Assembly: GCA_902826945.1 (NCBI GenBank)
Contig: CADEGS010000042.1
Coordinates: 8,166 to 24,986 of the forward strand
Direction: 5' to 3'
DNA from: an uncultured bacterium
Lineage (GTDB): Bacteria; Planctomycetota; UBA1135; GCA-002686595
Length of the DNA stretch: 16,821 bases
Positions 23-16,348 of this stretch are shown here, in pieces (within the stretch, counting starts at the first letter, position 1; the number at the start of each line of letters is the position of its first letter). The notes under the pieces are model-generated. The model saw only the letters and a program-made list of their open reading frames with translations, made no database searches and was not told the DNA's origin. The translations under genes and the position numbers were made by a program.

Positions 23-1264
23 CTACGGCCGCTCGTGGATCTGCGTCCAGCTCGAGCTCGTGAGCGCGGCGTTCGGATCCCAGCCGGCGACCTCGGAGAG
101 CAGGTACTCGCCGTTTCCGTTCGTCCACACGTCGCGGTAGCCGCTCGGCAGCTCGACCTCGCCGCCGCGCAGCGGGTCCACGTAGGTCTCGACGCCGCGG
201 ATCGTCTGGCTGAAGGCTTCCGCCATCGCGTCCTGCGAGCGCTGGCGCGCCTCCCACGTCTCCTGGCGCAGGTTCGCGACGTACTCGTTCGCCTCGGCCA
301 GGATGCGACTGCGGTCCAGCGCGCCCTTCTGCGCGATGCGCGCCATCGCGGCCAGGTGCTGCTGCACGGCCGCGGTCCAGACCGGGTTCGGCCGCGCCGA
401 CGCCACGATCGAGGCGAAGAGCTTCTCGTCGCGATCGAGCTCGCCGGCGGGCGCCCACAGCGCGTACAGGTCGAAGGCGGCCGAGGTCGAGCTGGTCGTC
501 GTCTGCGGTCCGCCGTAGCCGAGCATGGCGGAAGTGCTCGGCATCGAGGCGAAGGAGTGCTGCAGCGAGCCGACCAGCCACTCCTCGAGCGCGCCGCCCG
601 CGTCCTCGCGCCGCAGGCGCAAGCGCGCGACGTCGTGGCGCACGTCGAGCCCACCGGAGCCGCCCGCGGCGCCGAGCTCGAGCGCGACCTGCGCGTCGAG
701 CGCGCGCGCGACCTCGGGGAGCTCCTCGGCCGCCACGACGCGCGCGCCGGGCCGCACGCCGGGAACGAGCGTCTCCGCCAGCCACTGCCGCGCCGGCACG
801 GGCGGCCCGAGGTCGCAGCGCATCGTGCGCGGCTGCTGGCGCATGATCTGCGCCAGGCTCGGGTCGTCGCTCCAGGTCCACACGTAAGCGGGAAAGAGCT
901 CGGCGCCCGTGCGCCCGTCGGGGCTCGCCGCGCGCAGCGTCAGGCGGATGCCGGTCGCGGGACAACCGAGGTCGGAGACCCACTCGACCCCGCCCTCGCA
1001 GCTCCACTCGCGCGGCACGAGGAGCGAGAGCGCCTCGACCGGCTGGCCGAAGCCCTGGCGGTCCACGATCGAGACGCGCCGGAGCACGGTGTAGGCGCCG
1101 GCGGCCGGCGCGGCGGCGCGCTCGCTCGCCTCCTCCGTCCGTCGCGGCGCGCTCGCGTCCGGCGCCGCCGCGCGATCCTGCGCGGGCGTGCCGGCCGGCG
1201 GCTCGGCGGCGTCGCCGCCGCAGGCCGCGAGGAGCGCCGCCGCGAGCCCGGCGCGCGCGCGCAC
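23..1264 (-). CDS. Predicted lipoprotein of unknown function, last gene of the cytochrome cluster
   Basis: Encodes 413 residues from a GTG start. The N-terminus is a short basic stretch, a hydrophobic core and a lipobox ending LAAC with Cys15, so it is very probably a lipid-anchored envelope protein. A low-complexity Ala/Pro-rich linker (about 18-55) follows, then a mostly soluble domain with no CxxCH and no motif I recognise. The C-terminus carries a Trp/Asn/Gly-rich stretch (DVWTNGNGEYLLSE) that looks like a small structured module. The start is supported by GGAG six bases upstream of GTG and by the lipobox position; an in-frame TAG lies just two codons upstream. The gene follows the 33-codon ORF by three bases and the 15-haem cytochrome by about 170, so it is probably co-transcribed with the electron-transfer genes. 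It could be an accessory of the outer-membrane complex, but that is inferred from position only. Confidence 0.8.
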   Translation of the reverse strand: MRARAGLAAALLAACGGDAAEPPAGTPAQDRAAAPDASAPRRTEEASERAAAPAAGAYTVLRRVSIVDRQGFGQPVEALSLLVPREWSCEGGVEWVSDLGCPATGIRLTLRAASPDGRTGAELFPAYVWTWSDDPSLAQIMRQQPRTMRCDLGPPVPARQWLAETLVPGVRPGARVVAAEELPEVARALDAQVALELGAAGGSGGLDVRHDVARLRLRREDAGGALEEWLVGSLQHSFASMPSTSAMLGYGGPQTTTSSTSAAFDLYALWAPAGELDRDEKLFASIVASARPNPVWTAAVQQHLAAMARIAQKGALDRSRILAEANEYVANLRQETWEARQRSQDAMAEAFSQTIRGVETYVDPLRGGEVELPSGYRDVWTNGNGEYLLSEVAGWDPNAALTSSSWTQIHERP

Positions 1265-1431: not shown

Positions 1432-2634
1432 CTACTCGCGCCCGTTCGGGTGGCAGGCCAGGCAGGCGTTGCTCTCGTACACGTAGCCCTGGACCTCGTC
1501 GTGCTCCCCGTCCGTCTCGCTCTGGCGGTGCTCGTGGCAGTCGATGCACGAGAAGGTCGAGAAGGCCTGCGGAGCGACGTGGCAGTCGGCGCAGGCCAGG
1601 TTGCGGTGCGGGCCGGCGAGCGGGAAGGAGTGCTGGAAGTCGGCGTTACCCCAGCCGTTCGTGTCGTGGCACACCTCGCACGTGGTCGGAAAGCCCGCAC
1701 TGACGTGGTTCGGGTCGCTCGTCGCCGTGTACTCGTCCAGGTGGCATTCCACGCAACCCGACGCGATCCCCGCGTGACTGAAGCTCGCGCCCTCCCATGT
1801 CGTCGTCCCGTGGCAGTCCTCGCACGTGGTGGGGAACGTCGCATGGTCGGAGCCCGCGGCGACGTAGTCGTCCATGTGGCACGCGTAGCAGTCCGAGGGC
1901 GTTCCCGCGTACGCGCCTCCGGCATGGCAGGCCGTGCAGTCGGCCTGGCGGTGCGCGCCGGTCAGCGCGAAGCCGGGGTGGGTGAAGAACGAGCCGGTCC
2001 ACGAGATCGGCACGTGGCAGCGCTCGCAGTCGTCGGTGAAGCCGAGCGCGGCGTGGTCGGGATCGCTCGCACGCGCCGCGTCGTCCGCGTGGCAGCTCAC
2101 GCAGGCGGTGTCGAGCGGGGTGAAGGTGCCGACCTCGCCTCCCGCGTGGCAGCGCCAGCAGGCGACCGAGGCGTGCGCGCCGACGAGCGGGAAGCGCGTG
2201 CGCTGGTGCGAGGCGATCTCCTGACGCGGCCGCCAGTCCTCCTGCTCGTGGCACTGCGCGCAGTCCTGGCCGAGCTGCGCGCGGTGCACGTCCTCGTGGC
2301 AGCCGGCGCAGCCGCGCGCGGCGAAGACCGCGGCCGGGCCGCGGTCGTTGTGGCAGCGCAGGCACTCCGCCCGCGCGTGGGCGCCTTCGAGCGGCGTTCC
2401 CGTGACGGCCAGGTGATCGAAGACGAAGTCCTCGCGCACCTCGTGCCAGCCGTCGCCGACGTGGCACAGCGAGCAGTCGGCCGGGAAGCCGTCGTGCGGC
2501 ACGACCGGGCCGCGCGCCGCCCACCAGCCCTGCGGCGGCGCGTCGGAGCGGCGGCTCCCCAGCCGCACGCAGGCGGCCAGGATCCCGAGCAGCGAGAGGG
2601 CGAGGAGCAGGGCGTTCCAGCGTCGGAAGGTCAT
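1432..2634 (-). CDS. 15-haem c-type cytochrome with lipoprotein signal, probable outer-membrane electron acceptor/donor
   Basis: Encodes 400 residues with fifteen CxxCH haem-attachment sites: CSLCH, CLRCH, CAGCH, CAQCH, CWRCH, CVSCH, CERCH, CTACH, CYACH, CEDCH, CVECH, CEVCH, CADCH, CIDCH and CLACH, spread from residue 54 to 395. Most sites fall in c3/c7-like modules of CxxCH, CxxCH, F-x-H, (F)PLxGxH and CxxCH, where the extra His are likely second axial ligands. The N-terminus (basic MTFRRWN, hydrophobic core, then LAAC at Cys22) fits a lipobox, suggesting a lipid-anchored, possibly surface-exposed cytochrome comparable in role to MtrC or OmcB. Its ATG lies one base after the stop of the barrel gene, with AGAGG seven bases upstream. 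By family knowledge such proteins pass electrons along a haem wire to or from external acceptors. Which face of the outer membrane it occupies cannot be read from sequence; a plain Sec signal anchor is the alternative. Confidence 0.93.
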   Translation of the reverse strand: MTFRRWNALLLALSLLGILAACVRLGSRRSDAPPQGWWAARGPVVPHDGFPADCSLCHVGDGWHEVREDFVFDHLAVTGTPLEGAHARAECLRCHNDRGPAAVFAARGCAGCHEDVHRAQLGQDCAQCHEQEDWRPRQEIASHQRTRFPLVGAHASVACWRCHAGGEVGTFTPLDTACVSCHADDAARASDPDHAALGFTDDCERCHVPISWTGSFFTHPGFALTGAHRQADCTACHAGGAYAGTPSDCYACHMDDYVAAGSDHATFPTTCEDCHGTTTWEGASFSHAGIASGCVECHLDEYTATSDPNHVSAGFPTTCEVCHDTNGWGNADFQHSFPLAGPHRNLACADCHVAPQAFSTFSCIDCHEHRQSETDGEHDEVQGYVYESNACLACHPNGRE

Positions 2635-2635
2635 G

Positions 2636-4339
2636 TCAGAGCCTCTTCTGCAGCGTGAATCCGAGCGCGAGCGAGTCGATCCCGTCGCGCAGGCTCTCCT
2701 GCGCGTACAGCGACAGGTCCCAGCCCTTGCCCAGGCTCGCGTCCCAGCTCGCGCGCACGTCGTGGTGCAGGATCGAGTCGCCCTCGCCGCCCAGGCCGTC
2801 CTCCTCGAAGCGCGTCAGAGAGTAGCCGAGCGCGAGCTGCGAGCGCTCGAGCGCGCGCGTGGCGCGCAGGCGCAGGCCGAGCGACGTGCTGAACGCCCCG
2901 TCGCTCGCGAACGCGCCGAGCGCGACCTCGCCGCGGCGGTAGAGGACGTCGCGCAGCGCCACGCCGGCGTCTGCCGAGCCGCCCGAGCGGTCCTCGTCGC
3001 GCCACACCTCGGCGCGCGCGTCGAGGCGCGTGCGGCGCGACGGGCGCGTCCAGGCGCTGGCGCCGAGGCGCGTGACCTCGGAGTCCGCGACCTCGTCCGG
3101 CGCCACCTGCGCGAACTCGTCGCGCAACAGCTCCGGGAAGCGCACCTGCGAGCCGAACAGGCCCGCACCCCAGGCCTCGCGGTCGTGGCGCAGGCTCACC
3201 TGGAGCTGCGTCAGCTCGGGACCGGATCCCTTGACCTCGTCGCCCGACCCGTACCAGTCCACCCAGGCGGAGGCCTGGAGGCGCGTGCGCCGCGTGGCCA
3301 GCCAGCGCAGCGTCCCCACCAGGAGGTCGCGGTCGGGCTCGCCCGCGTGCCACGTCTTCTGCACGGCCGCGCCGAGCGAGAAGCGCTCCTGCTCGTCGGC
3401 GACGAAGCGGTAGAAGAGCGCGACTTGCAGGTCCTGGCCCGTCGAGAGCCGATCGTCGGGCTCCGGCAGCAGGCCGACGCTGGCGCCCAGGCGGCTGCCC
3501 GAGCGCAGGCGCTGCGCGACCTCGACGCCGTCGAGGTAGCCGAGCTCGGGGAACTCGTGCTGCAGGAAGCGTCCGACCTCCAGGCGCGTGGGGCGCTCGC
3601 GCGTGCCGCCGACGGCGTAGGAGAGCCGGCGCAGCGAGGTCACGCCCTGCGACTCGTCGGAGGCGTCCACGAGGTCTGCGCTGCGCTGGAACGTGTCCAC
3701 GGCGATCGTCAGCGCGCCGCCGTCGCGGAAGGGGTTGTCGACGTCGAGGTCGAGGCCGAGGAGCGCGCTCAGGTAGGCGCGGTCGACCTCGCCGCTGTCG
3801 CGCGCGTAGTCGGCGCTCGCGTGCAGCCGCCCGCGCACACGCCAGGCGCGCTCGGCGCGCGAGCGCGCGCCGAGCGGCGCGAGCAGCGGCAGGTCGTCCG
3901 CCCAGGCTCCCTCGCCCGCCTCCCACGGCGGGTGCGCGGGCACGGAGGGGAGCGGCGCCGCGCGCCCGGGCTCGGGCGCTCCCGCGTCTCCCGCGCCGCC
4001 GTCGTCCGGGGCGCCGTCGGGGGGAGCGGCCAGGCGCTCGCGCGGCACGAGCACCTCGCCGGGCGTGCCGACGTCGAGCGCGGCGTCGCCCTCGAGCCGC
4101 GCGAGCGCGCTCGCGCTCGCGACCGAGACCACCGTCGCGCGCACGAGGGCCGCACCGGGCGGGAAGAGCTGCACCGGGTCGCCCGGCGCGAGGCCGTCGT
4201 CGCGCCCGCGGTCGAGGTAGACACCGCCGCCGGCGACCGAGACGACGCGGACCAGGACGCGCTCGAAGCCGTCCTGCGCCGCCGCGCGCGCGCCGAGGAG
4301 CACGAGGAGCAGCAGCGAGGCGAGCCGGCGGGCGTTCAT
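2636..4339 (-). CDS. Predicted outer-membrane beta-barrel of a porin-cytochrome complex, with N-terminal periplasmic domain
   Basis: Encodes 567 residues. Residues 1-22 are a signal peptide ending ARAAAQ. Residues about 25-100 form a small beta domain with the pattern VLVRVVSV...VYLDRGRDDGLAPGDPVQL, resembling the SH3-like/FlgT-type domains of cell-envelope proteins. A Pro/Gly/Ala linker (about 101-165) follows, then about 400 residues of alternating polar/hydrophobic strands with acidic and Arg-rich turns, typical of a barrel. The start is fixed by the signal peptide and by AGGAAG upstream; the ATG overlaps the TGA of the 23-haem gene by four bases (ATGA). The frame stays open further upstream, but that is antisense to haem motifs. 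Lying between two multihaem cytochrome genes, it occupies the slot of MtrB/PioB or OmbB, but its barrel looks shorter than MtrB (about 700 residues). The C-terminal residue is Leu, not the usual aromatic. No CxxCH is present. Confidence 0.8.
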   Translation of the reverse strand: MNARRLASLLLLVLLGARAAAQDGFERVLVRVVSVAGGGVYLDRGRDDGLAPGDPVQLFPPGAALVRATVVSVASASALARLEGDAALDVGTPGEVLVPRERLAAPPDGAPDDGGAGDAGAPEPGRAAPLPSVPAHPPWEAGEGAWADDLPLLAPLGARSRAERAWRVRGRLHASADYARDSGEVDRAYLSALLGLDLDVDNPFRDGGALTIAVDTFQRSADLVDASDESQGVTSLRRLSYAVGGTRERPTRLEVGRFLQHEFPELGYLDGVEVAQRLRSGSRLGASVGLLPEPDDRLSTGQDLQVALFYRFVADEQERFSLGAAVQKTWHAGEPDRDLLVGTLRWLATRRTRLQASAWVDWYGSGDEVKGSGPELTQLQVSLRHDREAWGAGLFGSQVRFPELLRDEFAQVAPDEVADSEVTRLGASAWTRPSRRTRLDARAEVWRDEDRSGGSADAGVALRDVLYRRGEVALGAFASDGAFSTSLGLRLRATRALERSQLALGYSLTRFEEDGLGGEGDSILHHDVRASWDASLGKGWDLSLYAQESLRDGIDSLALGFTLQKRL

Positions 4340-6360
4340 CGGCTCTTCCTTCCCGTGCCCGCGCTCGTCTCCGCCGCGTGGCAGTCGCCGCACGCGGTGC
4401 CGAGCGGCCGGTAGCGGACCACCGATCCGCCGCCGGAGAGCGGCCACGGACGGTGGCAGGCCCCGCAGTCGAGCCGCGCGTGGCGCGCGTCCAGCGGGAA
4501 GCGCGTGCGCTCGTGCGAGAACGCGAGCGTGCCCTGCTCGGCGTGGCACGCGCCGCAGTCCGTCGCGCCGCCGACGGCGAACTGGCCGGCGTGCGGGTCG
4601 GCGTGGCAGTCGGCGCAGGCGCGCCCGGCCGCGAGGAGCGTGCGGCGGCCGAGGCGGTCGGGCTCGGCGCGCGGCGGGTGGCAGGCGCCGCAGGCGACCC
4701 GCGCGTGCACGCCGCCGGTGTCCCAGCCGGTCCAGAGGGCGTGGTCGAAGCCGGGGCGCGCGGGCGCGAACGCGGCGGCGTCGTGGCACGCCGCGCAGTC
4801 CGTCCGCGGCGCGACGTCGGCGCTCCCGGCGACGGCGCTCGCGAACTGGCCGCCGTGCGGGTCGGCGTGGCAGTCCGCGCAGGCGTCGGGCACGGGGGCG
4901 CGCGCCGGCGCGCCGCCCGCGCTCTCGCCGCCGCGCTCGTGGCAGCTCGCGCAGGCCGCTCGCGCGTGCGCGCCCTCGAGCGCGAAGGCGGTCCAGCGCG
5001 CGTGGTCGAAGGCGTCCCGGTCCAGCGCGGCGAAGGTCGTCGTCGTGTGGCAGCCCTCGCAGGCGCGCGCCGCGGGCGCGGCCAGGCGTCCCTCGTGCGC
5101 GTCGGCGTGGCAGTCGGCGCAGGCCGACCCGGTGCCGTGGAAGGCGCGCGGCGCGCCGGGCCCGGGGCGCGCGTGGCAGGCCTCGCAGGCGACGGCGAGG
5201 TGGCTTCCGGTCAACGGGAAGGCGGTCGCCGCGTGGTGCTCGACGCCGAAGGCGGGGGGCACGAAGCGCTCGCGCTCGTGGCAGCCGAGGCAGCCCACGC
5301 CGGCCAGCGGCCCGCGCGCGAACTGGCCCTCGTGCGCGTCAGCGTGGCAGGCCGCGCACGCCTCGGGCGGCCGCGGCGCGTGGCGCTCGGCGAAGGGCGC
5401 ACCGGCCGGCGCGTGGCAGCGCTCGCAGGCGAGGCTCGCGTGCGGCGCGGCGAGCGGGAAGCCGCTCGCGTCGTGCAGCGCCGGGGCCATCGCGGGCGGC
5501 CGCGCGAAGCCGCCCTGGGCGAGCGGATGGCAGGCGGCGCACGAGGCGGCCGGCGTCGCGTCGAGGCGCGCGGCCGTGCCGAGGACGAAGTCCATCGCGT
5601 GCGGCGAATCGTGGCAGTCGCCGCACGCGCGCGTGGGCGGCGCCGCTCCCGCGCCGGCGAGGGCCTCGACCGAGCGCTCGCTCGCGGGATCGTGGCACGC
5701 GGCGCAGGCGAGGCCCGCGTGCGGGCCGGAGTCGTCGAAGCCGTCCGCGTGCCGGAAGGCCTGCACCTCGGCGAACGGCTGCTCCTGGCCGTGGCAGTCG
5801 GCGCAGGCGCGCGCCATGCGTCCCTCGTGCGGATCCCCGTGACAGGCGTCGCAGCGCTGCTCGAGCCCGCCGAAGCGCGCGCTCCCCGCCGGGAGCGGGT
5901 CCGCCGCCGCGGCCGGGTGGCAGGCGTCGCAGGCGAGCGCCGCGTGACGGCCGCCGAGCGCGAAGGCGAGCGCGGCGTGGTCGTAGGCGCCTGGGTCGGG
6001 CACGCCGGCGCGCGTCCAGCTCGCGCGCGTGACGAGCTGCGCCTCGGCGCCGAGGTGCTCGCGGTGGCAGTCGCCGCAGCGCCCGGCGTCCACGCCCGAG
6101 GGCAGCGTCCCGTGCAGGCCGCGCCCCTCGGCGAGGTCGCGCGGGATGCGCGCGTGGCAGCGCGCGCAGGCGTCGGCCAGCGGCTGGAGCCAGCCGCCGT
6201 GGCAGGCCGCGCAGCCCTGCGGGTCGGAGAGCTCGGGCAGGCGCGCGTGCGCGGCCGAGAGCGGGCCGGGGGAGGTGCGCTCGAGCGCCCGCCAGGCGAG
6301 GCCCAGCACGAGCCCGAGCGAGGCCAGCGCGAGGAGCGGGGCGGAGCGGGAGAGCCTCAC
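4336..6360 (-). CDS. 23-haem c-type cytochrome, modular periplasmic electron wire
   Basis: Encodes 674 residues with twenty-three CxxCH motifs between residues 50 and 661. After a short N-terminal hydrophobic segment (about 8-22, no lipobox, so a Sec signal or signal anchor) come four leading haems, then six repeated tri-haem modules (residues 170-635), then one last site near the C-terminus. Each module runs roughly CxxCHADxHxGQF, CxxCH, F-x-H, FxLxGxHA, CxxCH, so it carries its own candidate axial His. No enzymatic domain is visible; a protein this haem-dense is expected to conduct electrons. It starts with GTG, supported by GGAGG (6368-6372) seven bases upstream and overlapping the end of the preceding oxidoreductase gene. 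Flanked by an inner-membrane flavoprotein and an outer-membrane barrel gene, its likely role is to bridge the periplasm, as MtrA does with ten haems. Residues are strongly biased to Ala, His, Cys and Asp. Confidence 0.93.
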   Translation of the reverse strand: MRLSRSAPLLALASLGLVLGLAWRALERTSPGPLSAAHARLPELSDPQGCAACHGGWLQPLADACARCHARIPRDLAEGRGLHGTLPSGVDAGRCGDCHREHLGAEAQLVTRASWTRAGVPDPGAYDHAALAFALGGRHAALACDACHPAAAADPLPAGSARFGGLEQRCDACHGDPHEGRMARACADCHGQEQPFAEVQAFRHADGFDDSGPHAGLACAACHDPASERSVEALAGAGAAPPTRACGDCHDSPHAMDFVLGTAARLDATPAASCAACHPLAQGGFARPPAMAPALHDASGFPLAAPHASLACERCHAPAGAPFAERHAPRPPEACAACHADAHEGQFARGPLAGVGCLGCHERERFVPPAFGVEHHAATAFPLTGSHLAVACEACHARPGPGAPRAFHGTGSACADCHADAHEGRLAAPAARACEGCHTTTTFAALDRDAFDHARWTAFALEGAHARAACASCHERGGESAGGAPARAPVPDACADCHADPHGGQFASAVAGSADVAPRTDCAACHDAAAFAPARPGFDHALWTGWDTGGVHARVACGACHPPRAEPDRLGRRTLLAAGRACADCHADPHAGQFAVGGATDCGACHAEQGTLAFSHERTRFPLDARHARLDCGACHRPWPLSGGGSVVRYRPLGTACGDCHAAETSAGTGRKSR
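4456..5853 (-). repeat. Six tandem tri-haem module repeats inside the 23-haem cytochrome gene
   Basis: Modules lie at residues about 170-222, 246-315, 335-395, 414-473, 494-561 and 582-635. Each has three CxxCH plus conserved His between them. The DNA also repeats: 4579-4620 and 4843-4884 are 42-base copies that differ at two positions, and related copies lie near 5090-5125 and 5320-5355. This suggests growth of the gene by internal duplication, or recent exchange between modules. Confidence 0.8.
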
Positions 6361-6364
6361 CGCC

Positions 6365-8569
6365 TCACCTCCAGAGCTCCCCGAAGCGCAGCGCGACCAG
6401 CACGTGCGCCGCGACCAGCAGCACGAGCAGGAGCGCCGCCCAGCGGTGCACCCAGCGCCACGAGGCGAGCAGCCCGCGCAGGTCCTCGTAGTGCGAGGCC
6501 ATCAGGCCGGTGCGCTGCGCGCGCCGCGCCACGGCCTCGAGCTGGTCGAGCTGCTCGCGCGACAGCCCCTCCGCGCGGCCCTCCGCGCGCAGCGCGCTCA
6601 GCGTGTGCCGCAGGCGGCGCTGGGCGCTGGCCAGCGCCAGGAGCCGCCGCGGCAGGCTCGCGCGCCAGGTCGGGTCGTCGCCCAGCGCCTCGACCGCGGC
6701 GCGCACGCGCGCGCCGAAGGCGCTGTCCCCGCGGTCCCACTCCGCGGACAGCCCGGCCAGCGCGGCGCGCGCCTCGTCGAGCTCGAGCTCGCGCCCGTTG
6801 GCCGCGCGCGGCACGAACGAGTAGAGGTAGCGGCCGATCGCGCCCGTCGCGACGAGCACCGCCAGCGCCGCCAGCGAGTAGCCGCCGACGGTCGCCTGCG
6901 GCGCCATGGCGGAGTGCAGCGTCGCGCCGAGCAAGGCTGCGATGCCGGTCACGACGTGCGCGCTCATCCACAGGCGCAGCGAGCCCCAGGCGAAGAGCCG
7001 TCGCCGTCCGCGGCGCAGCAGGTAGAGCAGGTTCAGGACGATCGAGAGCGCGGCCGCGCAGCCCGCGGCCAGGCCCACGCCGCGCGAGGGGCGCAGCAGG
7101 TCGTGGCTGGCCGTGTCGACGCGCTCCGCGCGCGGCAGGCCGTAGTAGCCGCGGAAGAAGACGACCCAGGCGAGCGTGCCGGCGGCGAGCACGAGGGCGA
7201 CGAGCAGCGCCCGGCGCAGGCCGCTGCCGCGCTCGCCGGGGGACGCGCGCCGCTCGCGCCGTGCGGGGTCGAAGGAGACGCCCGAGGCCTCGAGCACCTG
7301 GAAGGGCGGCACGCCGCCCGCCAGCACGAAGACGTCGTCGTTCGCGAGCACGAGCGGCGGCGCCTTGTCCGCGCGCGCGAGCTCCACCGCTCCCTCGTCG
7401 ATGCGCGTCACCTCCGTCTCGAGCAGGAGCGCCACGCGTCCCTCGCGCGCGGCCTCGGCCAGGCGCTGCTCGTTGCGCGCCTTGAGGCGGAAGAAGGCGG
7501 GGCGGCGGTAGGAGAGCGCGACCTCGTTGCCGGGCTGCTCGGCCAGGCCGAGCGCCGCCTCGACCGCGCTGTCGCCGCCGCCGACGACCAGGATGCGGCG
7601 TCCCTGGTACGACTGCGCGTCGACCAGGCCGTAGGCGACCTTGGGGAGCTCCTCGCCCGGCACGCCGAGCTTGCGCGGGCTGCCGCGGCGCCCCAGCGCC
7701 AGGCAGACGTGGCGCGCCACGACCTCGCCCTGCTCGTGGCGCACGCGGTGCAGCCCGTCGGGGCCGGTCGCGACGCCGAGGAAGCGCACCCCGGTGTGGA
7801 TCGGCAGCTCGTGCTCGCGCGCCACCGTGCTCCACAGCTCGATCAGCTCCTCCTTGCGGTAGCTCGTGGCGCTCAGGCGGCCGTGCAGCGGCAGCTCGAC
7901 CGGCTGGGTCATCACGAGCTTCCGCCGCGGGTACTTGGCGACGGTCCCGCCCAGCTCCTCCTGCTCGAGCGTCAGGAACGAGAGCCCGTGCTTCCTCGCC
8001 TGCAGCGAGCACGCCAGGCCCGCGGGCCCGGCGCCGACGATGCACAGGTCCCAGGCGTCGTCGGCGCGCGGGGCGCCCGCGCGCGCGCGCCGCGCGACCT
8101 CGTCGGCGACGGCCGTTCCCTGCGCGATGGCCGTGCGCACGAGCGCGTAGCCCGTGACCTCGCCGGCCAGGAAGAGGCCGGGCGCGTCCGGCGACTCGAG
8201 CCGCTCGTCGAGGTGCGGCAGATCGCGGCGCTCCTCGACGTCGGCGAGCGTGACCGCGATGGCCCCGGTGGGGCACTCCGCAGCGCAGCGCCCGTGGCCG
8301 ATGCAGCGCGCGCCGTGCACGACCATCGCCTGCCCGTGGATCAGCTCGAGCACGCCCTCCTCCGGGCAGGCCTCGATGCAGGTGCCGCAGCCCAGGCAGC
8401 GCGAGAGGTCGACGTGGGGGACCTGGAGCTCCCCGGCGTGGCTGCCGCGGCGCCGCGCGTCGCGCCGCTCGGCGAGGCGCTCGGCCAGGTGCGCGCGGTG
8501 CACGCGCCCCTCGAGCAGGAGCGCCGCGGCCAGCACGAGCACGACCGCTCCCAGGAGGAGCCAGCTCAT
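6365..8569 (-). CDS. Inner-membrane ferredoxin / FAD-NAD(P)H oxidoreductase / di-haem b fusion, cluster entry enzyme
   Basis: Encodes 734 residues. Residues 3-20 are a membrane helix followed by a basic stretch. Residues 58-105 are a two-cluster ferredoxin: CLGCGTCIEACP (full four-Cys set) and CIGHGRCAAECP, where His replaces the second Cys. Residues 130-160 (GLFLAGEVTGYALVRTAI) resemble the C-terminal FAD motif of thioredoxin reductases. GAGPAG (179-184) is the FAD Rossmann motif and GGGDSA (330-335) the NAD(P) motif; there is no CxxC disulfide, as in YpdA-like proteins. Five more membrane helices lie at about 452-472, 497-518, 530-552, 564-583 and 706-727. His538/His552 and His708/His722 are each 14 apart on two helices, the arrangement for two b haems stacked across the membrane. 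I infer transfer between NAD(P)H or ferredoxin and periplasmic cytochromes. ATG is chosen because the helix follows and GGGAGGG precedes it by three bases; an in-frame extension to 8755 looks non-coding. Confidence 0.88.
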   Translation of the reverse strand: MSWLLLGAVVLVLAAALLLEGRVHRAHLAERLAERRDARRRGSHAGELQVPHVDLSRCLGCGTCIEACPEEGVLELIHGQAMVVHGARCIGHGRCAAECPTGAIAVTLADVEERRDLPHLDERLESPDAPGLFLAGEVTGYALVRTAIAQGTAVADEVARRARAGAPRADDAWDLCIVGAGPAGLACSLQARKHGLSFLTLEQEELGGTVAKYPRRKLVMTQPVELPLHGRLSATSYRKEELIELWSTVAREHELPIHTGVRFLGVATGPDGLHRVRHEQGEVVARHVCLALGRRGSPRKLGVPGEELPKVAYGLVDAQSYQGRRILVVGGGDSAVEAALGLAEQPGNEVALSYRRPAFFRLKARNEQRLAEAAREGRVALLLETEVTRIDEGAVELARADKAPPLVLANDDVFVLAGGVPPFQVLEASGVSFDPARRERRASPGERGSGLRRALLVALVLAAGTLAWVVFFRGYYGLPRAERVDTASHDLLRPSRGVGLAAGCAAALSIVLNLLYLLRRGRRRLFAWGSLRLWMSAHVVTGIAALLGATLHSAMAPQATVGGYSLAALAVLVATGAIGRYLYSFVPRAANGRELELDEARAALAGLSAEWDRGDSAFGARVRAAVEALGDDPTWRASLPRRLLALASAQRRLRHTLSALRAEGRAEGLSREQLDQLEAVARRAQRTGLMASHYEDLRGLLASWRWVHRWAALLLVLLVAAHVLVALRFGELWR

Positions 8570-8915: not shown

Positions 8916-10541
8916 TCAGGGCGCCGGGACGTGGAACACGTCGTCCTGCAGCTCGACGCCGATCGTCGTGTTGCGACGGATCACGTCGGAGAGGCGCTGC
9001 GACTCGACCAGCGCCAGCATGCCGGCCGGCAGCGCGCGCTGGTACCAGAAGCGGTCGCCGTCGCGGGCGCGCGTGAACTGGTCGGCCAGCACCCTGCGCA
9101 CGAGCGGGCCGACGAGCGCGCCGCTGACGTGGTCCTCCGCCAGGCCGCCGGGCCAGGCGTCGATGTCGTCCACCGAGCCGTAGGTCTTCTCCAGGGCCTT
9201 GGCGATCGTCGGGTTCGTCGTGATCTCCGCGAACGAGGTCACCGCCGGCAGGTTGAAGGCGACGCGCAGCGCGTTGTAGTCCGGCAGGCCGTGGTCGCGG
9301 CCGCGCTGGATGTTCAGCGAGGCGAGGTCGAAGCCGCCCGAGCCGGGGGGGCCGAACAGGAAGTTGCGCACGTCGTCCACGATGGCGGTGTCCACCTCCT
9401 GCGCGGGCTGCCAGGCGAGGCCGCGCAGGATCGGCTCGATGCCGTGCGCGACGATCTCGGCCGGGTTGAAGAACGCGTGCTGCAGGGGGATGTCGCCGGC
9501 GGGGATCGGGTTCCCGGCGGCGTCCCGGCGCAGGAGCGTCGGCGACAGGAGCGTGTGCCCGACGCGGAAGGAGGCCGTCGCGAACTCGTTCGTGACGGCC
9601 GCGTTGGCCAGCGGGCGGTACCCGGCGTAGGGCGTCAGCGCGTCCGGCCCGAGCAGGACGGGCAGCCACTCGTTGTAGGTGATCGCCTGGATCTCGGCCC
9701 ACACGATCGTGCGCGCGAGCTGGTAGCGCTGCTCGTCCGTCGAGGCCGGCATCAGGAAGCCGAACACGAAGGCCCAGAAGTTGTGCTCGCGCACGAAGAG
9801 CGTGTGAATGACCGTCAGGCCGTTCTGCTCGTTGGCCCGCACGTCGCCCGCGAGGAACATCGTCGGGTCGGCCGGGCTCGGCGCGTTGGCGAAGCCGTTC
9901 AGGTTGAGCGGCATGAGGTCGCCCGGCCCGGTCTTCAGGCGGCCGGTGCCGTCGAGCGTGCGCAGCTCGAGCGAGCGCGCCACGTCCGAGCCGTAGACCA
10001 TCGAGCCGTCGATGTAGGCCGTGATGTCGTTCTTCTGCTGGCGCACGCCCGCGGGGTCGTGGAAGTAGAGCGAGCGCGAGAGGCCGATGACCTGCGTGCC
10101 GGTGCCCGTCGGGTCGAAGAAGGGGTCCCAGGCCGGCACGAGCACGTCGAACGGCTCGACCGGGTCAGCCCCGCCGGAGAGATCGAGGTCGTGGTCGATG
10201 AACTGCCCCCATTGCCACACGTAGTCGGAGGCGCCGGCCGCGTTCGGGGTCGAGCCGAGCTGCTTGCACAGCGCGTTGCTGACCGCGCGCGCGCTCGGCC
10301 GCGTCGCGCCCGCGGGGGCGTCGTGCCCGTCGGCGTAGGCCGCCGGCGCGCGCCGCAAGAGGCGCGTGTTCGCCATGCCCCAGGCGGGGTGGGCGAGGTT
10401 GTTGAACGAGCCGTCGATCGTGCGCGTGCCGAGGTCCATCGGCATGGCGCTCGTCGGGGAGAGGTCGGGTGTCTGGGCGGAGAGGCTCGCGCCGCACACG
10501 GCGAGAGCGAGCGGGACGATGTCCCTGGAAGCGAAGCGCAT
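8916..10541 (-). CDS. Secreted animal-type haem peroxidase (peroxidase-cyclooxygenase superfamily)
   Basis: Encodes 541 residues, with a signal peptide about 1-22 (MRFASRD, hydrophobic core, SLSAQ). The catalytic residues of the myeloperoxidase family can be traced: WGQFIDHD with Gln113, Asp116 (haem ester) and distal His117; a calcium loop TAYIDGS (174-180); Arg235 and Glu238 (second haem ester) in VRANEQ, with Gln239 where myeloperoxidase has Met; REHNFWA (251-257); proximal His329 in FRVGHT; and Asn410 in LNIQRGRDHG. It is therefore probably an active, covalently haem-linked peroxidase oxidising halides or organic substrates with H2O2 outside the cytoplasm. The ATG is fixed by the signal peptide and AGGAGG six bases upstream; extension to 10619 adds no signal sequence. 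It has no close partner gene: a 214-base gap precedes it and a 346-base gap with a hairpin follows, so it is probably monocistronic. Bacterial members are known but not common. Confidence 0.93.
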   Translation of the reverse strand: MRFASRDIVPLALAVCGASLSAQTPDLSPTSAMPMDLGTRTIDGSFNNLAHPAWGMANTRLLRRAPAAYADGHDAPAGATRPSARAVSNALCKQLGSTPNAAGASDYVWQWGQFIDHDLDLSGGADPVEPFDVLVPAWDPFFDPTGTGTQVIGLSRSLYFHDPAGVRQQKNDITAYIDGSMVYGSDVARSLELRTLDGTGRLKTGPGDLMPLNLNGFANAPSPADPTMFLAGDVRANEQNGLTVIHTLFVREHNFWAFVFGFLMPASTDEQRYQLARTIVWAEIQAITYNEWLPVLLGPDALTPYAGYRPLANAAVTNEFATASFRVGHTLLSPTLLRRDAAGNPIPAGDIPLQHAFFNPAEIVAHGIEPILRGLAWQPAQEVDTAIVDDVRNFLFGPPGSGGFDLASLNIQRGRDHGLPDYNALRVAFNLPAVTSFAEITTNPTIAKALEKTYGSVDDIDAWPGGLAEDHVSGALVGPLVRRVLADQFTRARDGDRFWYQRALPAGMLALVESQRLSDVIRRNTTIGVELQDDVFHVPAP

Positions 10542-10547
10542 CGGAAT

Positions 10548-10553
10548 CCTCCT
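10548..10553 (-). promoter_or_regulatory. Consensus ribosome binding site of the peroxidase gene
   Basis: AGGAGG on the minus strand, six bases before the ATG at 10541. It is the most consensus-like Shine-Dalgarno in the window and decides the start between this ATG and in-frame codons further upstream. Confidence 0.75.
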
Positions 10554-10725
10554 GGAGATTCGGTCCTGGTACTGGGGGCCTTGATGCCGCCCCCCGGCCG
10601 CGCCATCGGGCGCCCGCACAGGCTAGGCGCGAACGCGCGAGCCGAGGACAGGAGAGCGGGCAAAACCCGATGCGTACGGACCTTTGCTGATCCGGGGATC
10701 GCGCAGGAACGGCGCTCCGCACCCC

Positions 10726-10755: not shown

Positions 10756-12597
10756 CTAGCGTGCCGCGGCGCGCTGGGGCGAGGCCGGCGCCTCGTCGGG
10801 GATCGGGTCGACCAGCGCGAAGAGCGTGTCGCCGGGCTCGAAGTCGCCGCTCGTCGCGCCGTCGCGCGCCTTGACCACGCGCACGCGGCCGGCGGCGCTC
10901 TTGACGAAGAGCGGGATCACCGGGCGCTCGTCGCGCTCGTACTGGCGGCGGAAGGCCTCGTAGTCGTGCTCGGGGCCGAGCTTCGTGGCCTTGACCAGCG
11001 CGCCGCGGCGGAAGCGGTGCTCGATCGTCCAGAAGTCGGCCTCGGGCGCGAAGAGCACGCGCCCGCGCAGGTGCGGCGGCAGGTCGGCCTGCGCGGCGCC
11101 CTCGCCGGGCGCGAGCTGGTGCACGCTCGAGCGCCCGAAGAGCGGCGCCAGGTGCAGGCAGGCGAGCGCGTTCACGTGGTCGTTCGTCGTCACGGCGACG
11201 ACGTGCCCGAGGCTCTCGAGCTGCGGCACGTGCGAGAGGTCGTCGGAGAGCACGCTGCCGTAGTGCGCCTCCAGGCCGTCCAGGCGCGCGCTCTGCACCT
11301 CGTGGTGGTTCGTGTCCACGAGCAGCGTCTCGACGCCGGCCTTGTGCAGGGCGAGCGCCATGCGCCGCGCCCACTCGTGCGCGCCGACGAACAGCACGCC
11401 CTGCGGCTCGTCGCGCGCCAGGCCCAGGCGGCGCGCCAGCGGCAGCGCCGAGAGGCCGTAGATCGCGACCGTGCCGAGGATCACGAGGAAGGCGATCGGG
11501 ACCAGACGCTCGGCCCCGGGGTGGCCGTCCAGGACGAGCTGCAGGGCGAAGACCGAGGTCACCGCCGCCACGACGACGCCGCGCGGGGCCATCCAGGCGA
11601 TGAACAGCCGCTCGCGCCAGCCCAGGCGCGAGAAGGCCGTGGCGATCAGGACCGCCAGCGGCCGCACGACGAGCACCAGGGCCAGCAGGTAGCCGACGCT
11701 GCGCAGGTCGACGTTCGTGAACTCCTCGAGCGGCAGCCGCGCGGCCAGCAGCAGGAAGAGCACCGAGAGCAGGAGCACGCGCAGGTTCTCCTTGAACTCG
11801 ACCACGTGCTCGATCGAGACCTGGCGCTGGTTCGCCAGCACCACGCCCATCAGGGTCACGGCGAGCAGTCCCGCCTCGTGCTGCACCTCGTTCGCGCCCA
11901 GGAACGCGGCCAGCGCGATCGCGAGCACCACGGCGGCCTGCAGGAAGTCGGGGATCAGGTCGCGGCGCAGGAGCAGGACGATCGCGACCGCGCCGACCAG
12001 CCCCGCGACGCCGCCGCCCAGCAGCGCCAGCCCCGCCCCGCGCAGCGCGATGTCGCTCGTCGGTCCGGTGTGCACGAGCGTCTGGAAGACGAGCACCGCC
12101 ACGATCGCGCCGATCGGGTCGGTGACGATGCCTTCCCACAGGATCACGCGCCCGACCGAGCCCGACGGCCGCACGTGGCGCAGGAGCGGCACGATCACCG
12201 TCGGCCCGGTGACGACCAGGATCGCGCCCAGGAGCGCGCACAGCCCGAGGTCGAGCCCGAGCGTGTAGAGCCCGGCCAGGGTCGCCAGCGCGAACGTGAT
12301 CGGCGGGCCGAGCAGCACGAGCTGGAGCACGACCGGGCCCGCGCCGCGCAGCTCGCGCAGCTTCAGCGACAGCCCGCCCTCGAACAGGATCACCGCCACC
12401 GAGAGCGACACGAAGGGCAAGAGCGTCTCGCCCAGCAGCGCGTCGGGGTCGACCAGCTTGCGCCCGAGCAAGGGCTGCGCGAGCGGCCCGATCGCGAACC
12501 CCGCCAGGAGCAGGAGCAGGATCGAGGGCAGCCGCAGGCGCCAGGCCAGCCACTGCACGGAGATCCCGAGGAGCAGGAGTGCGGCGAGTCCGGACAT
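10756..12597 (-). CDS. CPA1-type cation/proton antiporter with cytosolic TrkA-like domain
   Basis: Encodes 613 residues. Residues 1 to about 395 form a dozen or so hydrophobic helices with CPA1 hallmarks: ILFEGGLSL (70-78), VVTGPTVIVPLLR (128-140) and WEGIVTDPIGA (154-164), where Glu155 and Asp160 are the probable ion-binding acids, and APRGVVVAA (337-345). Residues about 399-490 form a Rossmann-like TrkA-N domain (VLFVGAHEWARRMALAL, LLVDTN, YGSVLSDD, VAVTTND). Its glycine motif reads GAHEWA rather than GxGxxG, so nucleotide binding may differ. A smaller C-terminal domain (about 510-600) ends near FEPGDTLFALVDP, as in TrkA-C. The expected role is exchange of Na+ or K+ for H+ at the inner membrane. 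The ATG is chosen because the first helix follows directly; no Shine-Dalgarno is visible and a hairpin ends two bases upstream, so initiation may be leaderless-like or regulated. It appears to stand alone. Confidence 0.9.
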   Translation of the reverse strand: MSGLAALLLLGISVQWLAWRLRLPSILLLLLAGFAIGPLAQPLLGRKLVDPDALLGETLLPFVSLSVAVILFEGGLSLKLRELRGAGPVVLQLVLLGPPITFALATLAGLYTLGLDLGLCALLGAILVVTGPTVIVPLLRHVRPSGSVGRVILWEGIVTDPIGAIVAVLVFQTLVHTGPTSDIALRGAGLALLGGGVAGLVGAVAIVLLLRRDLIPDFLQAAVVLAIALAAFLGANEVQHEAGLLAVTLMGVVLANQRQVSIEHVVEFKENLRVLLLSVLFLLLAARLPLEEFTNVDLRSVGYLLALVLVVRPLAVLIATAFSRLGWRERLFIAWMAPRGVVVAAVTSVFALQLVLDGHPGAERLVPIAFLVILGTVAIYGLSALPLARRLGLARDEPQGVLFVGAHEWARRMALALHKAGVETLLVDTNHHEVQSARLDGLEAHYGSVLSDDLSHVPQLESLGHVVAVTTNDHVNALACLHLAPLFGRSSVHQLAPGEGAAQADLPPHLRGRVLFAPEADFWTIEHRFRRGALVKATKLGPEHDYEAFRRQYERDERPVIPLFVKSAAGRVRVVKARDGATSGDFEPGDTLFALVDPIPDEAPASPQRAAAR

Positions 12598-12730: not shown

Positions 12731-15700
12731 CTACAGCTCGCGCCGCGCCTTCTTGCGCTCGAGCTGCAGCACGAGCGCGTCGGGGTCCACGATCAGGCGC
12801 TCGGGCTCGAAGTCGCACAGGATCTCGAGCGGCGCGGACTCGCCGGCCCCGAGCACGACGCGCGCACGGCTCTCGCGCCAGCCCGCGCCGGGCGCGTCCG
12901 CGGCGAGCACGGCCGCGCCCTCCTGCGCGTCCGCGAGGGGCTCGGGGAAGCGCTCGCCGCGCGTCGCCGCCACCTCGACCGGCATGCGGCCGGTGCCCTT
13001 GTTCGCGAGCGTCGCGCGCACGCGCCAGCGGCCGCCCTCCAGGGCCTCGCGGGTCGCGTCCGCGAGCTCGTACTCGGGCAGCACGACCTCGAAGAACCAC
13101 TGGCGCGTGAACGCGTCGTAGGCCTCGGGGTCGGGGGCGAAGGGCCGCAGCGCAAGCACGAGGTCCTGCAGCAGCGGGTGGTCGGTGCTCGTCTCGTAGC
13201 GCTCGAGGAAGGCGCGGTAGCCGGCCAGGGCGTTCTCGCGCCCCAGGAGCTGCAGCAGCATCCAGAACACCCAGCCGCCCTTGTCGTAGGTCACGGTCTG
13301 GTCGCCCGCGCGCGAGCCGTCGATGCGCACCAGCGGCCGCTCGGAGTCGCGCTGCCGGCGCTCCGCGTAGCGGTCCTCGATGCCCTCGCAGAAGGCGATG
13401 CGCGGGCCGGGTCCCTTGACCTGGTCGAAGAGCAGGATCGTCGAGAAGTGCGACATGCCCTCCGAGAGGATGTCGCCGCCCGGGCCCTCGCCCGGCACGA
13501 GCCGGTTGCCCCACCACTGGTGCGCGGCCTCGTGCGCGGTGACGAGGAAGGGCGCGTCGGCCCGCTCGTCGCCGCGGGCGAGGAAGCCGATGCTCTCCGA
13601 GAACGTGATGTTCGTCGGGAAGCCCTGCGCGTAGCCGTCGTAGCCGGGGAACTCGGAGAGCTTGAGCTCCTGCCAGGGGAAGGGCGAGAACCACGCGCCG
13701 TACCAGCGCCGCGCGTCCGCGAGCGCCGCGGTCATCTCCGGCACGTTCCAGGCGTGGTCGGGGTGGTGGTGCACCGAGACGCCCTCGCCGCGCGAGGTCT
13801 GCCAGCGGCCGGCGACGACGTTGAGGAAGAGCACGGGGCGGTCGGTGCGCCACTCGACCGTGCGCCGGCCGTCGGCCACGACGTCGGACACGCGCACGCC
13901 GACCGAGTGGTAGTCGAGCTCCGCCGGGCCGTGCACCACGACGCGCGCGGGGAACGGGCGGTCGACGCCGAAGCCCGAGCGCGTCTCGCCCTCCCAGGAG
14001 TCCTCGGGCCAGTCCCTGGGCTCGGGCGGGTGCTCCTCGTCCGCTCCCAGCGTCGCGACGAAGCCCGGGATCGGCAAGAAGCTCGGCGTGAAGCTGGTCA
14101 GCACGACGCCGCTCTCGAGGATCATCTCGCTCGCGCGCGGGCCGTTCTTCGAGACGCCGCCGGGCACCGTGCCGCGGCAGTCGAAGCCGAGCTCGAGACG
14201 CGCGCCAGGCGCGAGCGGCCGCGGCAGGCGGAAGACGTGCAGGAGCGTCTTGTGCTCGGTCTCGAAGGGCTCGCCGTCGAGCGTCCAGGAGACCTCTTCC
14301 CAGGCCGGCCCGGTCGTGAACGCGATGCGCGCGAACGGCGCGGGCTCGGCGTTCTCGAGCACGTACGTCCCGCGCGTGCGGAAGGCGCCGGCGGCGGGCT
14401 CGAGCTCGAGGTCGAGGTCCACGCCGACGATCTGCGGCTGGCGCACGTCGTTCCACGTCATCAGGTTGGCCGTCCAGGTGTCGCGCGCGCGCTTCTCCCA
14501 GGCGCTGCCGCCGCGGCCGTCGCGCACGAGGATCGCGAGCCAGCTCGCGAGGAGCGCGGCCGGCAGCGCCCAGACGGCGAGCGCGCCCGCCGTGCGCAGC
14601 AGGCGCCCCGGCCGCAGGCGCGCGAAGACGCCCGCGGCGTCGCTCGCGCGGCGCGGGCACGCGCGCACCGCCAGCGCCGTGAAGAAGGCCGCCAGCGCCA
14701 GCGCCAAGAGCCGGTTCACGACGTAGGCGCGGCGGTCGAGCTCGAGCGGCGCCATGTCGCTCCACACGCCCGCGTCCCACAGCATCCAGTTGCCGACCCA
14801 GCTCGTCTCGCCGGTGAACTGGCGGTAGAAGGTCAGGACGAGCACGCCCAGCGCCGCCGCGTAGGTCGTCAGGCGACTGCGCAGCACGCACCACAGCGCG
14901 GTCGTGAACGACGTCCAGGCGAGCAGCGTGGGGACGAGCAAGAGCCCCCACAGGACCAGGAACGGGCGCGGCTCGAAGCGCGCGCGGCCGTCGAGCGCGA
15001 TCACGACCAGCGCTCCCAGGAGCGCGCTGGCCAGGATCGCCGCGCCGACCAGGCTGTTCGCCAGCGCCTTGCCGAGGAGCAGCGCCGCCGTCGGCGCGGG
15101 CGAGGCCCGCACCAGCGCGTCCATGCGCGTGGCGCGGTCGCGCTCCAGCGACTCGACGGTGTAGAAGAGCAGGAGCAGCGCCAGGAGCACGCTGAGCGTG
15201 TTGAAGCTCGCCGCGGCGAGCAGCCCGCTGGTCTGGATCAGCGGCGTGTCGAAGGCGCCCACGCGCGCCGTGGCGGCGCCGATCGTCTGCGCCAGGATCA
15301 GCGGCGCGAAGAGGTACAGCCCGGGCGAGCTGCGCAGCTCGCGCAGCTCCGCGCGCACCGTCGTCCACAGCCCGCCGAGAAAGCCCGGGCGCGCGACGCG
15401 CATGCCGAGCGCCGCCAGCGCCGCGCGCTCGCCGGCCGGGCGCGGCGCGCTCGCCGCCGGCGCGGACGCCGCCCTGGCGGCGCGCGCCGTGCGGCTCCCG
15501 CGCAGCCGGCGGTCGAGCGTCGCCTGCGTCCACACGACCGCGCCCAGCCCCAGGCCGAGGAAGGCCGCGCGGCTCCAGACGAAGAGCGCGTCCAGCCCGA
15601 CCGGCTGGCGGTTGTAGAAGTCCACGCCGCGGTCCACCGCCAGCCACGTGCGCTGCAGCCAGCGCAGGCCGGTCGGATCGATCGCCATCAGGAAGCGGTC

Positions 15701-16348
15701 CCAGCGCAGGGGCAGCCAGTGCGGCGCCCAGCTCCACACGAAGAAGCCGTCCACGAGCAGCAGCAGCACCGGCAGGAAGAAGACCAGGATCGGCCGGCGG
15801 AAGAGCGCGCCCAGCGCGAACGCCCAGCCGGCGACGAGGACGACCGTCGGCGCGAGGAAGAGGAGCAGCGGACCGAGGTAGCTCCAGACGGCGAACGGCC
15901 CGATGATCTCGCGCGTCTCGCCGCGCACGAGGACGTGGTTGCAGAAGGCGTTCGCCGCCGCGTGCACGAGGGCGACGAGCGCGAACACGAGCGCCTGGCC
16001 GCCGAGCTTGCCCCACACGTACTCGGCGGTCGAGAGCGGCGTCGCGCGCAGGAGCTCGAGCACCTGCAGCTCGCCGTCGCGCAGCACGCTCATCCCCGAG
16101 CAGACGGCGACGAAGAAGGCGTAGAAGAGCAGGCCCATCGCCGCCATCTGGTAGGCCTGGCTGAACTCGGAGGTGACCCAGGCCTTGGTGCCGCCGACCG
16201 AGCTGTCGCCGGTCGAGATCTGCACCGCGCCCTCCGACATGCCCCAGGCGAAGAGCGCGAGCAGCACGATCCAGATCCACAGCAGCGGCCGGCGCGTCTG
16301 GAACACGACCTCGGCGCGCGCGATCGTCGCCAGGCGTCGCGGCGACAC
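12731..16348 (-). CDS. Fusion of ABC-2 type permease and M1-family zinc aminopeptidase
   Basis: Encodes 1205 residues from a GTG start. Residues 1 to about 290 and about 315-625 are two membrane regions of ABC-2 permease type; the motif DGELQVLELLRATPLSTAEYV (split here as DGELQVLELL, then RATPLSTAEYV) in the first is typical of such exporters. A helix near 600-615 leads into a large extracytoplasmic region from about 625. It has a beta-rich N-terminal lobe, the zinc site HEAAH (His939, Glu940, His943) and the third ligand Glu963 in LSEGMSHFS. The spacing is HExxH-x19-E, one longer than the usual x18 of M1 enzymes. A beta-sandwich tail follows. The start lies three bases after the stop of the ABC ATPase, in the same frame, so the two are translationally coupled and probably form one complex. 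Such fusions are known in several phyla; whether the peptidase acts on exported substrates is not established here. Confidence 0.9.
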   Translation of the reverse strand: MSPRRLATIARAEVVFQTRRPLLWIWIVLLALFAWGMSEGAVQISTGDSSVGGTKAWVTSEFSQAYQMAAMGLLFYAFFVAVCSGMSVLRDGELQVLELLRATPLSTAEYVWGKLGGQALVFALVALVHAAANAFCNHVLVRGETREIIGPFAVWSYLGPLLLFLAPTVVLVAGWAFALGALFRRPILVFFLPVLLLLVDGFFVWSWAPHWLPLRWDRFLMAIDPTGLRWLQRTWLAVDRGVDFYNRQPVGLDALFVWSRAAFLGLGLGAVVWTQATLDRRLRGSRTARAARAASAPAASAPRPAGERAALAALGMRVARPGFLGGLWTTVRAELRELRSSPGLYLFAPLILAQTIGAATARVGAFDTPLIQTSGLLAAASFNTLSVLLALLLLFYTVESLERDRATRMDALVRASPAPTAALLLGKALANSLVGAAILASALLGALVVIALDGRARFEPRPFLVLWGLLLVPTLLAWTSFTTALWCVLRSRLTTYAAALGVLVLTFYRQFTGETSWVGNWMLWDAGVWSDMAPLELDRRAYVVNRLLALALAAFFTALAVRACPRRASDAAGVFARLRPGRLLRTAGALAVWALPAALLASWLAILVRDGRGGSAWEKRARDTWTANLMTWNDVRQPQIVGVDLDLELEPAAGAFRTRGTYVLENAEPAPFARIAFTTGPAWEEVSWTLDGEPFETEHKTLLHVFRLPRPLAPGARLELGFDCRGTVPGGVSKNGPRASEMILESGVVLTSFTPSFLPIPGFVATLGADEEHPPEPRDWPEDSWEGETRSGFGVDRPFPARVVVHGPAELDYHSVGVRVSDVVADGRRTVEWRTDRPVLFLNVVAGRWQTSRGEGVSVHHHPDHAWNVPEMTAALADARRWYGAWFSPFPWQELKLSEFPGYDGYAQGFPTNITFSESIGFLARGDERADAPFLVTAHEAAHQWWGNRLVPGEGPGGDILSEGMSHFSTILLFDQVKGPGPRIAFCEGIEDRYAERRQRDSERPLVRIDGSRAGDQTVTYDKGGWVFWMLLQLLGRENALAGYRAFLERYETSTDHPLLQDLVLALRPFAPDPEAYDAFTRQWFFEVVLPEYELADATREALEGGRWRVRATLANKGTGRMPVEVAATRGERFPEPLADAQEGAAVLAADAPGAGWRESRARVVLGAGESAPLEILCDFEPERLIVDPDALVLQLERKKARREL

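Follow-up and report, generated by a model that had tools for sequence, protein, structure and literature searches.

From which cytoplasmic pool the very large porin-cytochrome conduits of bacteria take their electrons, or to which they deliver them, is the question raised by a four-gene cluster in a 16,821-nucleotide stretch of DNA from an uncultured planctomycete (GenBank assembly GCA_902826945.1, contig CADEGS010000042.1, positions 8,166 to 24,986), which is called the window here. The cluster encodes an inner-membrane fusion enzyme, a 23-haem cytochrome, a beta-barrel and a 15-haem cytochrome with a lipobox. Functional assignments throughout are made from sequence and predicted structure, and on this basis the cluster is quite likely a trans-envelope conduit of the porin-cytochrome type PCC3, whose cytoplasmic end would be an NAD(P)H or ferredoxin oxidoreductase, with electrons running in either direction. 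The fusion of the reductase to the inner-membrane protein (IMP) of the conduit, together with the near-constant co-occurrence of reductase and conduit, speaks for NAD(P)H or ferredoxin at this end and against quinol.

The four genes are tightly packed on the minus strand and encode proteins of 734, 674, 567 and 400 amino acids according to the reading-frame analysis of the window, with spacers of 4 bases (6361-6364), a 4-base overlap (4336-4339) and 1 base (2635). Gene calls and motif counts confirmed the quartet as it had been listed in the earlier note, made from the sequence alone, i.e., a fusion of ferredoxin, FAD and haem b domains, a 23-haem cytochrome, a barrel candidate and a 15-haem lipobox cytochrome, spaced by 4, -4 and 1 bases. 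PCC3 was described in 2017 as a porin with extracellular and periplasmic cytochromes and a five-helix IMP of about 300 residues, whose helix 4 carries SGXXG and whose helices 3 and 5 carry WX3HX13H; the cluster was found in iron oxidisers, modelled for uptake and drawn as quinone-active (PMC5566968). Its cytochromes have been reported with 21-27 and 10-85 haems, and the periplasmic one with 21, 24 or 27 (PMC5566968; the Gallionellaceae pangenome of 2023, PMC10734462). The accessible literature treats the role of PCC3 in extracellular electron transfer as predicted only. The window resembles PCC3 in its barrel, its large, predicted periplasmic 23-haem cytochrome, its second multihaem cytochrome (15 CXXCH, lipobox) and a homologous five-helix IMP domain with twin WX3HX13H motifs. 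It differs in that this IMP is fused to a ferredoxin/FAD reductase, the helix-4 motif is TGXXG instead of SGXXG, and the haem spacing of the outer cytochrome is unlike that of the three proteobacterial ones compared.

The comparison was extended with 14 gammaproteobacterial IMPs, all of which carry both motifs and are followed in the PCC3 lay-out by a 21- or 24-haem cytochrome (14/14) and then, where the stretch reaches far enough, by an outer cytochrome with between 15 and 98 haems. A profile built from these IMPs matches residues 488-708 of the fusion at 3.6e-15, and a mixed IMP profile matches residues 454-733 at 7.9e-50 (database size set to 4000 for both). With the first profile, 7 further proteins of the window gave no match. 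The barrel profile weakly matches the gene at the porin place in seven of the 14 stretches (2e-14 to 4e-6); the other seven are cut or have a large unmatched frame there. The accessible text of the two PCC3 descriptions (PMC5566968, PMC10734462) mentions no such reductase, and no link between PCC3 and an NAD(P)H or ferredoxin reductase was found in the open-licence literature searched. Next to other IMP clusters, PCC4 among them, an Fe-S gene or another redox gene has been reported (PMC5566968). The earlier note had taken the cluster for a larger conduit and knew of no described system with this exact combination; the coupling to a cytoplasmic reductase held up, while porins with very large haem counts had already been described as PCC3 in the accessible literature. 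The porin-cytochrome half is thus of a known kind, and the reductase-coupled PCC3 is new.

The fusion enzyme begins with a membrane helix (residues 1-20) followed by many arginines, continues with 4Fe-4S and Pyr_redox_3 domains recognised by Pfam, and ends in a block of membrane helices. A hydrophobic N-terminal segment was present in all 73 reductase sequences that start early enough, with a mean of 6.6 Lys/Arg within the next 20 residues (window included); the net charge after the first helix is not positive in single cases, e.g., L038 and L058. The positive-inside rule relates Lys/Arg next to a membrane helix to the cytoplasmic side, and the Lys/Arg-rich stretch behind the N-terminal helix therefore suggests that the flavin domain is cytoplasmic. 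The ferredoxin part carries the motifs CxxCxxCxxxCP (C58, C61, C64, C68) and CxxHxxCxxxCP (C89, H92, C95, C99). Among 79 sequences, window included, 74 keep the His of the second motif; in the first motif, the second ligand position is taken by Cys in 53 sequences, by Ser in 19 and by Thr in 5 (Ser/Thr 24/79). The closest PDB relatives of the FAD domain are YpdA/Bdr, TrxR and the TrxR-like ferredoxin-NADP reductase, with Bdr, a YpdA-family bacillithiol disulfide reductase, as the best by sequence. Plain YpdA or TrxR identity was rejected, as the enzyme missed both NCBIfam cut-offs (TIGR04018, 138 versus 339.9 bits; TIGR01292, 59.4 versus 343.45 bits). A conserved YR, present in at least 77 of 80 sequences, window included, aligns with the HRR of 2zbw, which we take to matter for coenzyme choice, and NADPH is therefore the likelier coenzyme. 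In the C-terminal domain, WX3HX13H occurs at residues 534-552 and 704-722 and TGAIG at 575-579; helix 3 of this domain falls slightly below the hydropathy threshold used. His 538, 552, 708 and 722 are invariant in all 22 aligned fused proteins, and these four residues suggest that the domain carries haem b. T575 of TGAIG is likewise invariant in the 22, and split IMPs usually have Ser there.

The association of reductase and conduit was examined in 80 loci, the best 80 of at least 413 confirmed relatives chosen by likeness to the enzyme. An IMP, a barrel and at least two cytochromes were found in 36 of the 39 loci flanked on each side by 7 kb or more and in 51 of all 80, many of the remaining ones being truncated by contig ends. 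Reductase and IMP form a single protein in 26 loci, 25 in a planctomycete clade and one, L026, in a deltaproteobacterial metagenome-assembled genome (MAG), where the fusion sits on a long branch. In loci of Bacteroidota (where it runs in line with the other genes), Acidobacteriota, Ignavibacteriota, Calditrichota, Zixiibacteriota, Krumholzibacteriota, Fidelibacterota, Rhodothermota and Gemmatimonadota, the reductase gene stands on its own, within the cluster or next to it. The window groups among the planctomycete fusions in the tree, which needs three label changes. Since one of these is L024, a contig-truncated fusion scored as split, the simplest reading is two fusions, the second resting on the long branch. 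In the Planctomycetota genomes, fusion was seen in 21 of 43 reductase genes and in 18 of 31 genomes.

Whole genomes were sampled by group, each sample containing a centre genome picked through a locus. In Planctomycetota (199 genomes searched) the barrel was found in 31, the reductase in 31 and both in 30, i.e., in 30 of the 32 genomes with either; the corresponding numbers for Bacteroidota (247 searched) were 22, 21 and 21 (21 of 22), and for Gammaproteobacteria (229 searched), with strong IMP matches in place of the barrel, 29, 30 and 28 (28 of 31). Fisher P was below 1e-28 in each of the three groups, uncorrected for kinship. The reductase lies within 12 kb of the barrel or IMP gene for 38 of 43 genes in Planctomycetota, 20 of 22 in Bacteroidota and 27 of 32 in Gammaproteobacteria (strong IMP); in 26 of these 27 gammaproteobacterial cases it is on the strand opposite to the IMP (25 divergent, 1 convergent), with a median gap of 504 bases. 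These counts exclude 4 partial barrel rows of 47 in Planctomycetota, 10 of 53 enzyme rows (nine lacked the ferredoxin part, and the tenth was the IMP member of a split pair; genomes 33 to 31), 4 of 25 enzyme rows without the ferredoxin part (genomes 25 to 21) and 19 of 51 IMP rows weaker than 1e-25 (genomes 43 to 29). Retained rows still include weak or partial ones, with barrels down to 6.5e-19 and one enzyme cut at a contig end (G202), and absences may be false, since no more than the top few candidates of each genome were scored. Separate occurrence of the four genes, which the earlier note had named as what would speak against a common system, was rejected, as the quartet travels together in 51 of the 80 loci, and the reductase and its barrel or IMP partner do so in the whole-genome samples. 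The coupling to a cytoplasmic NAD(P)H- or ferredoxin-type enzyme proposed there is backed by fusion and neighbourhood under 11 phylum labels.

The barrel, a candidate in the earlier note, models confidently in AlphaFold2 (mean pLDDT 88.6), with 22 long strands at residues 167-566 and an N-terminal beta domain; a non-barrel model, the other outcome that the earlier note had named as refuting its view, was thus not obtained. It has no Pfam match at 0.001, the MtrB/PioB family included, and MtrB structures are not among the listed fold matches, which is uninformative on kinship. In a PDB sequence search with the barrel profile, the N-terminal domain weakly matched TsaP, a LysM domain protein (2.9e-05), besides two weaker rows; profile comparison of the barrel and the enzyme gave nothing, as expected. 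The 23 and 15 CXXCH of the cytochromes share one reading frame, against a total of 1 in the remaining five frames of the window, and a chance origin was rejected because shuffled versions of the two proteins average 0.22 and 0.20. Cytochrome c7/c3 families of Pfam score above cut-off in both, and the lipobox of the 15-haem protein, LAAC with Cys22, was read from the sequence.

Two cytochrome types can be distinguished by haem spacing among the related loci. Counting the window, 50 of 54 complete genes of the inner type have 3n+2 haems (20, 23 or 26 in 49), and 35 of 53 of the outer type have 3n+1, as if cytochrome length grew in three-haem units; neither rule fits 20 further cytochrome genes. 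The 23 of the window obeys the inner rule, and its 15 is a minority value for the outer type, in which haem number is very variable. In the proteobacterial loci L072, L145 and L155, the haems of the outer cytochromes are spaced differently, mostly at near-regular distances of about 22-30 residues, and the inner cytochromes retain the start pattern 16, 26-31, 40-42; the outer cytochrome therefore looks exchangeable and the inner end conserved. A loosely defined lipobox is present in 15 of the 54 genes of the outer type and in 3 of the 57 of the inner type, window included, so the predicted lipoprotein character of the window's outer cytochrome is not general in the family. Very large cytochrome genes include an open frame with 98 CXXCH that extends to the end of its stretch (L158, 10022-19001, plus strand) and a 64-CXXCH cytochrome adjoining the barrel in a Rhodothermota locus (L054, 3350-8335, plus strand). 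The largest haem number known to the authors of PMC5566968 was 85.

We infer the cofactor loading, the order of transfer, NAD(P)H as donor and the outward direction as follows. NAD(P)H would reduce the FAD of the fusion enzyme, and electrons would pass over the two Fe-S clusters to two b haems across the inner membrane, in the manner of ferric reductase or NADPH oxidase. From there the 23-haem protein would serve as a periplasmic wire to the 22-strand barrel, through which the 15-haem surface lipoprotein and finally an outside acceptor would be reached. Export seems slightly the better guess for the direction. Because outward flow by this way would spend membrane potential, an outlet for excess reductant without energy conservation is the most likely use, ahead of energy-conserving respiration. 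RuBisCO, the CO2 pathway covered, was above its family cut-off in 2 of 12 host genomes checked, which fits reductant disposal somewhat better than CO2-fixing uptake; even these two may be false RuBisCO, since the family also matches the Bacillus subtilis control.

Inward flow, in which electrons from minerals, partners or Fe(II) complexes reduce NADP+ directly with the aid of the membrane potential and bypass the quinones, appears rather unlikely: the parts could in principle work both ways and PCC3 has been modelled for uptake in iron oxidisers (PMC5566968), but the reaction is uphill from most donors and the RuBisCO family matched in few of the hosts checked. Published expression data point both ways, as both PCC3 clusters of Sideroxydans ES-1, whose IMPs are Slit_1446 (PMC12016527) and, by gene order, Slit_0870, are lowered on Fe(II) (PMC8788666), which speaks against uptake, and the IMP of one PCC3 copy in strain CL21 is raised when iron oxidation is possible (PMC12442390). 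We also doubt that the conduit is quinone-linked as in the published model (PMC5566968), with the IMP trading electrons with quinol and the reductase feeding quinone or having another task. The Pfam matches of 20 split IMPs, DUF4405 in five and cytochrome b561 in two, are in line with that model, as is a Methylococcaceae MAG (G004) with three IMPs for one reductase, while the covalent fusion and the near-constant presence of the reductase beside a strong IMP argue against it. A mere electron store, periplasmic or at the surface, formed by the 23- and 15-haem proteins with no wire across the outer membrane, would suit the variable haem number of the outer protein; a barrel conserved in the same cluster makes it improbable. 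Least probable is that the reductase, like YpdA and TrxR, has a small disulfide or thiol as its substrate, its place beside the conduit then reflecting cytochrome maturation or redox stress: the kinship with Bdr is set against the missed family cut-offs, the extra two-cluster ferredoxin domain and the fusion to a di-haem b domain.

Several observations weigh against a reductase-coupled conduit that runs outwards. When weak IMP matches are counted, both partners occur in only 28 of the 45 gammaproteobacterial genomes with either. The reductase of L067 has no IMP, cytochromes or barrel nearby; its genome is G004, in which the IMPs lie elsewhere than the one ferredoxin-FAD gene and no barrel matches at 1e-6. 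Among other genomes with a reductase, neither IMP nor barrel was found in G306 and G686, G685 has only a weaker IMP match, and G386 has no IMP and only a weak barrel match. G201 and G399 contain IMPs and no reductase at 1e-60. The structure model of the fusion (pLDDT 65.9, from a narrow alignment of 22 close relatives) is too poor to trace the path between the domains. The rise of the CL21 IMP could fit inward flow, and the IMP may also contact quinol. On the other hand, the apparent exceptions L046 and L076 dissolve, as their genomes contain IMP and barrel.

As compared to other known systems, the cluster shares with MtrCAB, MtoAB and PioAB a periplasmic cytochrome, a barrel and, as in Mtr, a surface cytochrome. 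The inner end of those systems is a CymA-type quinol oxidase, and membership in the decahaem DmsE/MtrA family was rejected, the window scoring far below the cut-off (TIGR03508, 51.4 of 192.2 bits). Porin-cytochrome logic is also that of Geobacter OmbB-OmaB-OmcB, whose haem numbers and inner-membrane enzymes differ from those of the window. 'Geobacter-like' porins have been reported in Ignavibacteria and Caldithrix (PMC6137239, PMC7399161), in whose phyla the present cluster also occurs, and the barrels may be distant kin. NADPH oxidase and ferric reductase likewise lead from NAD(P)H over flavin to two b haems on two HX13H helices; they have a domain of the ferredoxin-NADP reductase type in place of the TrxR/YpdA-type flavin domain and ferredoxin of the window, where electrons would continue to multihaem wires. 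That comparison was first made for the IMP in PMC5566968. YpdA/Bdr, TrxR and ferredoxin-NADP reductase are kin in FAD-domain sequence and motifs, to which the window adds ferredoxin and cytochrome b domains.

The features of the window are collected in Table 1. The haem peroxidase, about 350 bases upstream of the cluster, is absent from the recurrent neighbour families shown for related loci. A shared-neighbour search gave sensor-kinase-type regulators, a broad family, in 14 of 81 stretches and other groups in at most 8. A Sel1 and ankyrin-repeat protein adjoins the ferredoxin-FAD gene in five of six gammaproteobacterial loci scanned (L147, L151, L152, L155, L157); in L150 the neighbour is a DUF5666 protein instead. 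Eight Bacteroidota loci share a small predicted lipoprotein family with no Pfam match, which in L066 (16994-17800) is followed on the other strand by a ResB/CcsA-type cytochrome c assembly gene. In the ferredoxin-FAD gene of L072 (G003:C64:61760-63025) the genome search reads one TAG near the match end, probably the match overrunning a stop, and the frame of the locus is mostly open.

Table 1. Cluster features and neighbouring genes in the window (residue numbers refer to the encoded protein)
Feature	Position	Strand	Basis
Inner-membrane fusion enzyme, 734 aa: predicted transmembrane anchor, two-cluster ferredoxin, FAD-NAD(P) and putative di-haem b IMP domains	6365..8569	-	
Ferredoxin domain, residues 50-105	8255..8422	-	Pfam Fer4 families
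FAD/NAD(P) domain, residues 173-436, GGGDSA and SYR motifs	7262..8053	-	Pyr_redox_3 2.5e-39
PCC3-type inner-membrane cytochrome b domain (putative), residues 454-734	6365..7210	-	Motifs and IMP profiles
23-haem cytochrome, predicted to be periplasmic, with GTG start and a signal or anchor at the N-terminus	4336..6360	-	Haem spacing 15, 30, 49 = inner type
Predicted outer-membrane beta-barrel with signal peptide and without Cys; N-terminal beta domain and 22-strand barrel	2636..4339	-	
22-strand barrel region, residues 167-566	2642..3841	-	AlphaFold2
Predicted surface lipoprotein cytochrome, 15 CXXCH, lipobox LAAC	1432..2634	-	Haem spacing 37, 18, 16 = outer type
Animal-haem-peroxidase family protein	8916..10619	-	PF03098, 9.9e-149
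Sodium/proton or potassium/proton antiporter	10756..12597	-	TrkA-N domain
Large protein with ABC-2 permease segments and M1 peptidase domain	12731..16348	-	
413-aa protein	23..1264	-	No Pfam or NCBIfam match

In the accessible literature PCC3 has no settled function or cytoplasmic partner, and the fused or adjoining reductase suggests a specific donor. With these loci the range of the system widens from Proteobacteria to no fewer than 11 phylum labels; named strains of both Planctomycetota and Bacteroidota are among the carriers, e.g., Planctomycetes bacterium Poly30 (Saltatorellus ferox) with two copies of a relative of the fusion enzyme. It is an even call whether PCC3 overall is a very widespread 'plug' coupled to NAD(P)H, which would join the pool of pyridine nucleotides (or of ferredoxin) directly to the outside, with a conserved inner and an exchangeable outer end, and not a quinone-linked iron oxidase. 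If so, and if run inward, such a plug would use extracellular electrons to form NADPH in a single step, with the membrane potential as driving force, and would need neither quinone nor reversed complex I. The distribution suggests that many supposed plain heterotrophs could exchange electrons with their surroundings directly from NAD(P)H.

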